A stretch of DNA of 64,000 nt from Haliclystus octoradiatus (lineage: Eukaryota; Cnidaria; Staurozoa; Stauromedusae; Haliclystidae), in NCBI GenBank assembly GCA_916610825.1, contig OU744446.1:27356445-27420444 (forward strand). The letters run 5' to 3'. Below the pieces are notes generated by a model, which saw only the letters and a program-made list of their open reading frames with translations, was not told the origin of the DNA and did not search any database. How positions within the stretch are numbered: the stretch's first letter is position 1; each line of letters opens with the position of its first letter. Of the stretch, positions 19,401 to 31,400 are shown piece by piece. The position numbers and the translations under genes were made by a program.

Positions 19401-22400
19401 ATCTATCTCGTCATTTCATTCGTCAGAAATGAAAGACAGTGGGAAGAAAGATAAAGACGGTTCAGTTGTAATGGGGCCAATAACAATTCTAGAATACAAT
19501 AAATACATGAATGGAGCTGACAAATCGGATCAAATGTTAAAACATTTCCCTATGGCAAGAGGAACACTGAAATGGATGGTGAAATTTATGTTATATTTTC
19601 TTGAAATTAGTTTATTCAACACGTTTGTTATGTACCGGAACCATAACAAGAAGTCAGACCTGAGAACATTTTTATTGAACTGTGTGAAAGAGATAGCAAA
19701 ACGACACTCGAAGCAAAGCAGTAATGTAAATGAAACTATTGACAACGAAGACGACTATAATCTAAATGTTATTTGTTATGTTAGTAATGTAAGTAACGTT
19801 AGCAATTCAGATGATAGTCAGTAGCTAACATTGTTACAGCATCAGCTTCCATCAGCTTCAGTAAAACGTGCTCCTGTTCAAGACCGGAAAGCCGCTTACG
19901 TGGCAGCTTGTCATAGCACAGATTTGTTTGTTTACCACCGACCGAGAAAAAGAAAACACCAACACGTGTCTGCCACGTCTGTTCTGCTCGCGGTAAACGA
20001 AAAGAGGCAAGAACGTATTGTGCCAACTGTAATGTACCTTTGCATGCTATAGACTGTTACAATAAATACCATAGTTTGATAAACTATTAATTAGACATTT
20101 TTCTTCATAATTATTTAAATTTTTTTGTATATACTTTTGAAATACCTTTCTTTTGATTATTTGAATACTTGTTTGCTGAATTTCACAGTTAAGAACTTCA
20201 ATCGTGTTACATTTTCTCTTGTTCAGCAAATAAAAACTTTTACAAATAAATAGGCTACATAATATATAAGTGATTCTCAAGATTATAAACCTAAAACCAT
20301 CATTATACGCATTATATTGAAGCAGAAATAGCGGTTTGAAGTGTGAACATTTTTGTTGATATAAGTTCTAAAACTGTGTGGCCTGTGGGGGAGTGAAATT
20401 GTCTTGAGCTGCGGCAACATAAATGTTAATGTAAATATACTACTGAAATATCGCAGATAGTATATAAAGATATACAATACAAGAGCTCCAGCATCTGTTC
20501 ATCATGCCAATGGCCAGCTGACCACTATTTCAAACAGAAGTCGTTTACCCATATGGAGATAACCAAGACACAACATTACCTTTCGCTTTTGCTGTATAAA
20601 GTAAAGAGCTTGATTATCATAATATTTATAAGGACGCAATGAAAAAGTCTGGTGGCCAAGATAAGCTGATGTGTGAAGAACAAAAGAAATATCTTATCTC
20701 AAGTACAATTTACATATTCCTTCCCAAATTATCCTCATGGTATATCCTGCTGTCAAACATATCCTATCAATATTTCCAAATTTTCTCACAGCACAGCCTG
20801 GTACAAAACAAAAATTGTTGTCACAGCCAACATAATTATAAAAATCTACAAGTTCCAGTTGCATATCAATGCCCAGATGGCTTTCCTTATCAGAGTCAGT
20901 GCAAAGTAATACATTACTATCGGTGTCCATTAATACATAATATCTATTTCGAATGTATTAACAAATGCTGCCATTTCATTTCATTTCAAAGGTATTATTT
21001 GCAAAAATCATTTCGATGATGACATGAAACTGCAACATGATCCTGTATTAATCAAATTACGTCTTCGCTTGATACCTGTCATAAATGTTTCTGATTCTGT
21101 AGACAGTGATACCGATGATATTTACGCTGCTTGTCATAAAGTTTCAAATTTTTAATTGTCAGCTATGTTAGCCTATCTTGAATGTACAGATGCAGGTGTA
21201 CAGTTTCATGTTCAGGACAAGCACGGTTTAGCTTGTACTATGGATTTCCAAAGTCTCAACTGTCAATGCAGCAGTAGAAATATTTGTCGCCTGCAATTTA
21301 GACCTAGTCTGGTTCTTTTGGGGAAATGGAGGTGATCAAAAGAGTTGGAGCTGAACAACCAAAACTACGCTATACAATGGTACTCTGTCAGACGGAGACA
21401 CCAAACGCAAAAGCTTCCAAATCACACATGAAAGAATCTTCTGTCGATCACACGATTTGGCTAAGTTGGAAATAGTAATCATCTTGGATCATGATTTGAT
21501 AGAAGATCTCAATGACCTCTATAAAAAGCTTGATTGGCTGATAAATTGCAACATCACAATTGTGTGAAAGGTAATTCATTACAGTATTTGGAAAATTCAC
21601 TTACAATATCCACTTTCCAGTGTGTGCTATCATTTGCGCTACTTTTCAGAAATATCAACAGGTAGAAGAGGATGTAAAACACTCATCGATGAAGATGGCA
21701 ACACATATTGCGGAGTATTCTAACATCCAATTTCTGACGAGTATTCCAAGGGTGTTCGTCCCACTGTTTACAACATTGACGTATTGAAAATACTATTGAG
21801 ATTGAATTTAGCAATCGAATCCTTAAACGGTAAAATTGAGCCAATTGACCATTTTAAAGCAATCAAATTTTTATATTCTGCGCATCCTGGAGAGACATTC
21901 AGCCCAACTGAGCCTATGAACTTTTTGGAGCTTTGCTTGTCAAACAACATCCAAGTTATGGAATGCAGACTGTTGTACTCCCATGTCACTAAATATTTGT
22001 AGTAGGGTCAACGACATGCGGTCTGTAACCATAACTAGATGCAAAGTCCAATCTGAAATCAATACGCATCCAAGAACATTTGACAACAACAAAATTCAAA
22101 CTCATAGGTAACATGTCTTCATAAGTAACCAAACATTCCACATAGCAGTGTTCAACATCATTATCACATCTATTGTGTTTATTATTGTTCACAGGAAATT
22201 TTCAAAAACCCAACATCACTCTCTCCAGAGCGAATTCTGCACAACTGAAACGTTATGGTATATGCTTGACTTGGATTTCATGCAATCAACAGTAGATTTC
22301 ATAAATGTAAATACAATACCGAAACATTGCAGATACTTTATAAAGAAATACAATACAAGAGTTCCAGCATCTGCTCATCATGTCAATGGCCAGCTGACCA

Positions 22401-28400: not shown

Positions 28401-31400
28401 TAAAATTGAGCCAATTGACCATTTTAAAGCAATCACATTTTTATAACCCGCACATCTTGGAGAGTCCTTCAGCCTCTATAAAGCCTATGAACTTTTTGGA
28501 GCTTTGCTTGTCAAACAACATCCAAGATATGGACCGTAGACTGTTGTACTCCTATGTTACTAAATATTTGTAGTAGGGTCAATGACGTGCGGTCTGTAAC
28601 TATAACCAGATGCAAAGGCCAATCTGAAATCAATACGCATCCAAGAACATTTGACAACAACAAGATTCAAACTCATAGGTAACATGTCTTCATAAGTAAC
28701 CAAACATTCCACATAGCAGTGTTCAACATCATCATCACATCTATTGTGTTTATTATTGTTCACAGGAAATTTTCAGAAACCCAACATCACTCTCTCCAGA
28801 GCGAATTCTGCACAACTGAAACGTTATGGTATATGCTTGACTTGGATTTCATGCAATCAACAGTAGATTTCATAAATGTAAATACAATACCGAAACATTG
28901 CAGATACTTTATAAAGAAATACAATACAAGAGTTCCAGCATCTGCTCATCATGCCAATGGCCAGCTGACCACTATTTCGAACAGAAGTTGTTTACCCATA
29001 TGGAGCCAACCAAGACTCAACATTACCTTTTGCTTTTGCTATATACAGTAAAGCGCTTGATTATCATAATATTTATAAGGAAGCCATGAAAAAGTCTGGT
29101 GGCTAAGATAAGCTGATGTGTGAAGAACAAAAGAAATATCTTATCTCAAGTACAATTCACATAATCCTTCCCAAATTATCCTTATGGTATATCCTGCTGT
29201 CGAACACATCCTATCAATATTTCTAAATTTTCTCCCAGCACAGCCTGGTACAAAACAAAAATTGTTGTCACAGCCAACATAATTGTAAAAATCTACAAGT
29301 TCCAGTTGCATATCAATGCCCAGATGGCTTTCCTTATCAGAGTCAGTGCAAAGTAATACATTACTATCGGTGTCCATTAATACATAATATCTATTTCGAA
29401 TGTATTAACAAATGCTGCCATTTCATTTCATTTCATTTCAAAGGTTCTATTTGCAAAAATCATTTCGATGATGACATGAAACTGCAACATGATCCTATAT
29501 TCATGAAATTACTTCATAGCCTTTGACATCTGTCATAAACGTTTCTGAGAACAGTGATTCAAATGATATTAACGCTGTTTGCCATTAAGTTCTAAATTTG
29601 CACCTGTTTCAGCTTTGTTAGCCTATCTTGAATTTACAAATGCTGGTGTATGGTTGATGTGCAGAAGAAGCATTGTTTAGCTTTTACTATGGTTTTTCAA
29701 AGTCCCAACTGTCAATGCAATAGTACAAAAATACTTGTTCTCAGCAATTTAGACCAGGTCAGGTTCTGTGAGAAGGGGACTCCAAATGCTAAATCACTTA
29801 CGTGAAATAGAACCATATGGTAAACGTTTGCAGAATACATAAATCAAGAAAAGGGTAATAAAAGAGCAAGAGAGTTAAGAGAGATAGAGGAACTAGGTGG
29901 AATGAGTGAAGGTAATTAAACTGACACCATTTATAACAAATTTGGAACATTATTTTGGACATTTTATTACAACGAACAATGATATCTGAAGCAAATGAAG
30001 TTTTCTAGGACAAAAAACACGATAAATGACCTGGTGGGAATGATTTTAGATATTTCTACAAAATTACGCTTGCAGAGAAAGAGGCACCCATAGCAATGTG
30101 AAGAAAAGAGGAAAACAAGAATTATCCAAGCAGAATTTGAAAATACATTGTATCAGAGATTGGCAGTGGCAGCCTATTGAAACATTAATTATGTGGTAAA
30201 ATGTAAAATATCAATAAAAGTCTGAACGGTGTCCTTGTAAAAGACATGCCTTCTTTTAGTGGGTTTTCACCTGATGATGAAATTGATTTGTCACAAAATG
30301 CACCCTTTCCGACAATGACGATGAACCACTAGCTGGCAAAGCCTTGCTTAAAAAGTATCATCAAGATGAAGATTCAAAAGACACACTTCTTTGAAATTAT
30401 GAACAAAGAATAAATGGGAATTTGACATTTCAACCTGGTGAGTAGATTGTGTACAATATTATACACGCAATAATGTTTTTGTTATTTTGACATTTTAAAT
30501 TCAAGATATATGCAGCATATGTTTAACTTTTTATGGCTGAGTTATAGATACGGGATATTGCGATGTTTCTTTGCTTGTCAACTACTGTGGAGTTCTCTAT
30601 TGCAGTAAAATGGAATGATGCATAGAAATTCAATTCTAATGTTTATTAATTTGTTTAAGATAGTTTTCTACGGAGTCCTGCATACAGAGAATTTGTCCGT
30701 TTTGTGTTTCGTCAAAAATATATGGATTCCTGGTATACTGAAAAATTGAGACACAAAAGCGTCACTTTGACTGTATTGACCTTCAAAACTGTTTCAGCTT
30801 TCAAATTTCATGGTAACTGTTGTAAGCATAAAGTTGAGATATCTAGTAATGATATGCCTAGTAATCATGATCATGATGATGGATGTGATTCAATGCTTTT
30901 TGATGATTCTTCAGGCAGTTTAAGTCAATCTTCTCAGCTTTGTCCTAGAACATTTCAAGAACAACTAGGTTATATGCATTCTTTGATGAATTTTACGAGT
31001 TGTTTCCCTTTATTGTTTGAACATATAATATAAATGTTAATAATAAAATATAATAACAGTCATGTTCTAGAGCAATGTGGAAGGAATCATCAAACAAAAA
31101 ATATCAAATTCTTGGGCATTCTCATCGACGATAAATTGAACTGGAAGGAGCACATTAGTATGGTTTGTAAAAAAATCAGAAAAAATATTTACACTTTATT
31201 ACACTTAAAAAATGATCTTTCCGTAAAACATAAAGTTCAAATATACAATGCAGTCAGAGCTCTCACCCTCCCAATTTCGTCGGGAGTCTCCCGATTTTCA
31301 GTGTGTTCTCCCGCTTTCCCGATTTGGGCAAACTTCTCCCGCTTTTTGGTAATATTCAATTTTTAAGTGACAATATTCATTTTTTTAAATCTTAACATAT

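Follow-up and report, generated by a model that had tools for sequence, protein, structure and literature searches.

Helitrons end in 5′ TC and in 3′ CTRR with a hairpin, and insert between A and T, with no duplication of the target. As described for Helraiser (PMC4778049), the HxH motif of the nuclease corresponds to H593/H595 and its tyrosines to Y727/Y731, followed by a Pif1-family helicase (the RepHel plan), and a review (PMC12628747) reports that truncated, decayed parts of Helitrons occur in tandem arrays, with shuffled and tandemised pieces in Crassostrea gigas. Here we describe a nested tandem array in the staurozoan Haliclystus octoradiatus (assembly GCA_916610825.1, 262 Mb in 33 contigs), located inside a 40 Mb contig (OU744446.1, hereafter C1) within a stretch of 64,000 nucleotides (the window, C1:27356445-27420444). 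We consider that this array is very probably the pseudogene remnant of a large, Helitron-like DNA transposon with introns (Rep nuclease plus Pif1 helicase) that was tandemly duplicated and then reshuffled by unequal exchange.

The transposon family to which the array belongs resembles Helraiser, as the latter is described (PMC4778049), in its HxH motif and its Y-x3-Y pair at the spacing of Y727/Y731, followed by a Pif1-family helicase, and it has the same motif order as the canonical Helitrons of the same genome (EFQK-R-x-LPHCH, then Y-x-FKY). It differs from Helitrons in having a Rep region split by introns, with neither a Helitron_like_N match nor a significant profile match, and in a weak GIY-YIG-like frame downstream; the array, moreover, is without the HxH part and without the helicase. 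Truncated, decayed parts in tandem are also what the review (PMC12628747) reports for Helitron-derived arrays and satellites of plants, Drosophila and bivalves. In contrast to these, coding Rep exons and their intron are repeated here, as seven copies of ~0.7 kb that are set within a larger unit, occupy a single place and are no satellite; satellite DNA is rejected, as the genome searches with tail and head DNA placed the seven tail copies at this one locus.

BLAST self-comparison of the window showed direct repeats packed into a single block, 20428-29767, in which a repeat finder and alignments recovered four heads (H) and seven tails (T) in the arrangement H1 T1 H2 T2 T3 H3 T4 T5 T6 T7 H4, as follows:

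20428-21403, + strand: head H1, 5′ part diverged (left edge; repeat finder, alignments)
21404-22079, + strand: tail T1, lineage a, without the 42 bp deletion
22080-22303, + strand: link between T1 and H2, comprising an exon end, an intron and the start of the next exon (alignments)
22304-23273, + strand: head H2 (repeat finder, alignments)
23274-23952, + strand: tail T2, lineage b
23953-23998, + strand: T2/T3 tail-tail junction
23999-24676, + strand: tail T3, lineage c
24677-24901, + strand: linker between T3 and H3 (alignments)
24902-25886, + strand: head H3, holding the back-junction between element positions ~8029 and 4837
25887-26520, + strand: tail T4, lineage a, with the 42 bp deletion (alignments)
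26567-27246, + strand: tail T5, lineage b body
27292-27926, + strand: mosaic tail T6, 5′ half T3-like and 3′ half T4-like, with the same 42 bp deletion as T4
27973-28650, + strand: mosaic tail T7, 5′ half like T5 (also T3 and T6) and 3′ end T3-like
28651-28874, + strand: linker between T7 and H4 (alignments)
28875-29767, + strand: head H4, 3′ part diverged (right edge; BLAST self-comparison)

Heads start at 20428, 22304, 24902 and 28875 (spacings 1876, 2597-2598 and 3973-3974), tails at 21404, 23274, 23999, 25887, 26567, 27292 and 27973 in the register of the repeat finder. Consecutive heads are separated by 1, then 2, then 4 tails, a count made in a preliminary description of this DNA and borne out by all three approaches, and the tail periods of ~725 and ~680 given there also agree with the steps measured within blocks (725 from T2 to T3; 680, 725 and 681 from T4 to T7). 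The short step results from a deletion of ~42 bp that the alignments place in T4 and T6 only, T1 being without it. Pairwise differences between tails range from 15/589 (T4-T6) to 51/589 (T1-T3), i.e., 2.5-8.7% in a matrix of ~590 columns, and tail-tail BLAST matches have an expectation value (E) of 0, which excludes chance likeness.

The searches of the assembly with tail or head DNA scored the best candidates only, so that the counts are lower bounds; among these candidates, high-identity matches were restricted to the array and elsewhere only fragments 66-81% alike were seen. The tail query matched the seven tails, two short array pieces and at least two distant fragments (C5, 66%; C2, 72%), the head query the four heads, two junction pieces and at least six fragments on C7, C4 and C6 (75-81%). 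A genome search for a progenitor, as proposed in the preliminary description, led to fragments of the transposon family and, among the candidates scored, to no high-identity copy outside the array. In relatives from C5, C2, C7, C4 and C6 the exons match the array consecutively. Aligned with one of them (L021, reverse strand), the tail equals 7003-7693 and the linker 7784-8029, from where the head turns back to 4837-5007, 5128-5220 and 5299-5436 (overall 4837-5436). The tandem unit, as read from these alignments, comprises upstream exons, a gap of ~1.5 kb, the Rep exons (tail) and the next exon, and then turns back. The HxH exon falls in the gap; every tail starts immediately after the HxH motif, covers the Rep exons that follow and stops where the Y-x3-Y exon stops. 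As the intron is retained in the tails, the copying took place at the DNA level. Heads fuse the exon after Rep back to the exons upstream of Rep, so that head, tail(s) and linker make up one tandem unit, of which the original division into heads and tails is a rotated cut.

The nuclease motifs of Rep sit on separate exons, and the array itself retains neither the HxH part nor the helicase. What it does retain is broken: in exon A one base is missing from 7/7 tails relative to L017 and L021, which disrupts the frame, and as this frameshift is common to all tails the source was already dead when tail multiplication began. T1, T4 and T6 have a stop codon of exon B in common, and another stop is shared by H2, H3 and H4, H1 being without it. 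It is likely that the array has no function. A role as a source of antisense small RNA against active relatives is disfavoured by inference, the array being only ~66% identical to its nearest tail relative.

Searching the genome with one Rep exon (199 amino acids) gave 77 matches, of which 14 fall inside the array; at four places the exon is 99-100% identical with an open frame. Near-identical copies lie at C6:13429808, C6:10959582, C6:10989024 and C2:31631771. Within the motif alignment (41 of 68 loci searched, with two C2:31631771 loci counted twice), the HxH, i.e., the HUH nuclease motif, is present in 19 of the 20 aligned rows that span the site, with HIY in L037, and the Y-x3-Y tyrosine pair in 22 of 26 rows (altered in L018, L053 and L045, gapped in L039). 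A Pif1 helicase exon (PF05970) follows on the same strand 2.1-2.7 kb downstream of the Rep exon at 21 places, a count that uses 85 of the 86 PIF1 rows of the genome match table, and within the same 2.1-2.7 kb none was seen upstream of Rep exons or on the strand opposite to them (0 and 0). The PIF1 match in L017 has an E value of 2e-10. Among viral contigs, three pattern stretches were found for relatives and none was confirmed. The GIY-YIG-like frame mentioned above lies downstream of the helicase in L017 (563-1066, − strand; T5orf172, E 0.03, under the cut-off), and a frame of 163 amino acids with a GIY-YIG-like start is likewise found downstream of the helicase in L021/L063; seen in two Rep-helicase members, it may belong to the element.

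Copies within the array have probably exchanged sequence. The preliminary description saw two alternating tail types forming dimers, and the steps do alternate, but the 3′ halves of the tails (columns 300-683) fall into three lineages, {T1,T4,T6}, {T2,T5} and {T3,T7}, with 11-14 differences per 108 between lineages and 0-3 within them, for which dimers are too simple. The best of five 3′-half trees was ((T1,(T4,T6)),((T2,T5),(T3,T7))), a tree composed after the pairwise matrix was seen and hence favoured by hindsight; the free maximum-likelihood tree holds the same three groups (ultrafast bootstrap, UFBoot, 96-98). Relative to this lineage tree, four of four doubling-type trees are rejected in the 3′ halves (log-likelihood differences 128-194; p-AU, the p value of the approximately unbiased test, 5e-6 to 3e-5). 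In the 5′ halves (columns 0-230), which offer 230 columns with few informative sites, it is the lineage tree that is disfavoured (p-AU 0.02); columns 230-300 are outside both trees. Since the two halves favour different trees, the tails are mosaic and no single block-duplication order fits both; the self-comparison and pairwise matrix that were proposed for ordering the duplications gave the array and its counts, but not such an order. T6 combines a T3-like 5′ part (T3-T6 0/170, columns 60-230) with a T4-like 3′ part (0/108, 0/88), and T7 a T5-like 5′ part (T5-T7 0/59, 1/170) with a T3-like 3′ part (2/109 in columns 450-560; 4/87). The break is the same, GAACATAC[CT]AAAAC, in all four tail-tail junctions, and GAACA is present also at the head end and at the tail end.

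Counted from the 5′ end of H1, H1 and H2 differ at 11, 10, 4, 4, 1 and 4 positions per 95-100 columns, while H4 differs from H2 at 1, 5, 1, 5, 0 and 2 per ~100 columns and then at 16/87, 19/97 and 19/98; compared with H2 and H3 together, H4 has 0-8 differences per 100 columns before ~29510 and 15-20 per 87-99 columns after. The divergence of H4 near 29510, earlier taken as an ancestral edge, is thus real but half the picture, as the 5′ edge of H1 is diverged too: the outer ends of the array (H1 5′, H4 3′) escaped homogenisation, which is expected if exchange requires a neighbour. Across the four heads 131 unbroken columns are identical (20839-20969 in H1, ~22715-22845 in H2) with differing flanks, a run as long as this appearing once in 5,000 column shuffles (p 0.0002); this stretch is mid-head, where exchange reaches all four copies. 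One break point common to all tail-tail junctions, mosaic copies (T6, T7) and diverged outer edges (H1 5′, H4 3′), features of a tandem array shaped by unequal exchange, are all observed here. In these respects, and in its homogenised middle, the locus resembles the outcome of ordinary tandem duplication and unequal crossing-over and departs from it in nothing that demands another mechanism.

We propose that the unit would have been born by one tandem duplication, with its junction at a possible ATGG microhomology, and the first tail pair by one internal duplication joined at a GAACA microhomology. Unequal homologous exchange, with tails and heads mispaired, would later have produced the counts of 1, 2 and 4, and it would not have homogenised the outer edges of H1 and H4; the block of four tails could derive from one crossover of a three-tail block (a b c) with a two-tail block, giving a, b, c/a, b/c. 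The series 1-2-4 requires no special mechanism, and the architecture, which had been regarded as unusual, is that of an ordinary transposon-derived array; its divergent source family is the better lead.

Several results weigh against this interpretation. The back-junction common to the heads, perhaps at ATGG, is weakly placed, having been judged against a relative only ~66% alike. PF14214 (Helitron_like_N) has 66 matches genome-wide up to E 10, but at no Rep-exon place (77 in all) is there one within 8 kb. A profile-profile comparison (hhalign) of Rep with two canonical Helitron types scored 14.9, which is not significant (3/20 column shuffles were higher), with the motifs aligned in register. 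No relevant match to the Rep exons was found in Pfam, NCBIfam or PDB sequences: NCBIfam returned none for four proteins, and of two Rep exons searched against PDB sequences the first had an unrelated best match (E 0.026) and the second none. The homology of Rep to that of canonical Helitrons rests on motifs and helicase, and given the missing PF14214 match, the lack of relevant models and the non-significant profile score we term the family Helitron-like and not Helitron. Element ends were sought and not reached, L063 and L064 matching up to the edge of the retrieved DNA. Within the array, T3-T7 differ at 8/116 in columns 330-450, no closer than T2-T3 (7/116), and two doubling trees are not rejected by the 5′ halves (p-AU 0.84 and 0.70).

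These 5′ halves, and the counts of 1, 2 and 4 themselves, speak for a history in which the entire previous tail block was doubled each time (1 to 2 to 4), as put forward in the preliminary description. Doubling, however, predicts T4 and T6 beside T2, and T5 and T7 beside T3, whereas the 3′ halves group T4 and T6 with T1, T5 with T2 and T7 with T3 and reject the four tested trees (p-AU ≤3e-5), so that we regard it as very improbable. A misassembly of copy number or order is highly improbable too, for although tandem copies 91-97% alike are open to such errors, those observed differ by 2.5-8.7% with private changes and lie within a contig of 40 Mb.

Rolling-circle amplification, whereby a transposon circle without 3′ terminator would yield a tandem multimer that is inserted and later mutated, agrees with the Rep-plus-Pif1 plan of the source family and is a route described for plant arrays of truncated Helitrons (Xiong et al. 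2016, as reported in the review PMC12628747). We nevertheless think it quite unlikely here, as both ends of the unit fall inside exons (two internal junctions), the array lacks the helicase and holds a nested repeat of tails only, its copies are mosaic and the frameshift is already in 7/7 tails. A host gene with repeated exons, its protein repeats under selection, would account for repeated exon-intron units and for the 131 columns identical in four heads (p 0.0002), but is hardly credible: each tail carries frameshifts and stops, the sequence has homology to a family that is dispersed in the genome (one exon has 77 matches) and the invariant stretch lies mid-head, reachable by exchange in all four copies. 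We thus retain the tandemly duplicated and reshuffled transposon relic.

To the left of the array, two further transposon remnants are found:

17937-18068, + strand: partial Rep motif-1 exon belonging to the array's own transposon family (tblastn to L021, E ~1e-10)
18441-19454, + strand: broken piggyBac-like transposase between the Rep motif-1 remnant and H1 (Pfam DDE_Tnp_1_7, E 3.4e-33, 18441-19073)

The first is part of the exon located in the ~1.5 kb gap and was also retrieved by the genome search (C1:27374378-27374491, E 4e-7). In the second, an open frame (19074-19454) comes next after the DDE_Tnp_1_7 match, and no TTAA-flanked terminal inverted repeats were found around it (best 7/16). 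The surroundings of the array in the window consist of transposon pieces and minus-strand exons, the latter including a FYVE finger (44556-44756, E 2e-16) and a DEP domain (14941-15300, E 1e-10). FYVE and DEP on one strand may suggest PIKfyve, in which case the array would presumably be intronic, but PDB searches ranked other FYVE/DEP proteins first. Domain and PDB searches found no relevant match for the frame 15955-16377. The window also contains a canonical Helitron fragment (42995-43427, + strand; Helitron_like_N, E 1e-15) that by profile is unrelated to the array's family, pieces of a DDE_Tnp_4 element (42352-42825, + strand; E 2e-10), of an endonuclease-reverse transcriptase element (11339-13822, − strand; E 1e-8) and of a MULE-like transposase (6888-7994, + strand; E 3e-5, under the cut-off), an uninterrupted TAT repeat of 367 copies (34284-35385, 1.1 kb, 100% matches) and a 37 bp unit repeated 5.4 times (51447-51647, 98% matches).

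Two further clusters of Rep-exon matches lie at C2:6519787-6528115 (four) and at C5:25106149-25109174 (five; known from the match table alone). The former belongs to a complex tandem array of repeated blocks (C2:6519787-6528359) with Rep-exon blocks 92-98% alike, and as it is just 70-72% like the array on C1, the two are of independent origin. A few kb downstream of this second array lies a Parvovirus NS1-like open frame of 486 amino acids (L018 99-1559, − strand; Parvo_NS1, E 7e-9).

The array at C1 is a small, clear case of a dead transposon fragment turned into a nested tandem repeat with readable break points, mosaics and edges, and it cautions that a 1-2-4 count does not by itself show doubling. 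Should the source family turn out to be a distinct Rep-helicase lineage, it is one missed by standard profile searches and would be worth describing. It is doubtful that the source is an undescribed (by which we do not claim unpublished) intron-rich HUH(Y2)-Pif1 lineage beyond Pfam's model, recently active, whose Rep exons recurrently end up in tandem arrays, here, on C2 and perhaps on C5. Were this true, the recurrence of arrays at independent places could mean that the element's own replication, and not chance exchange, seeds tandem copies.

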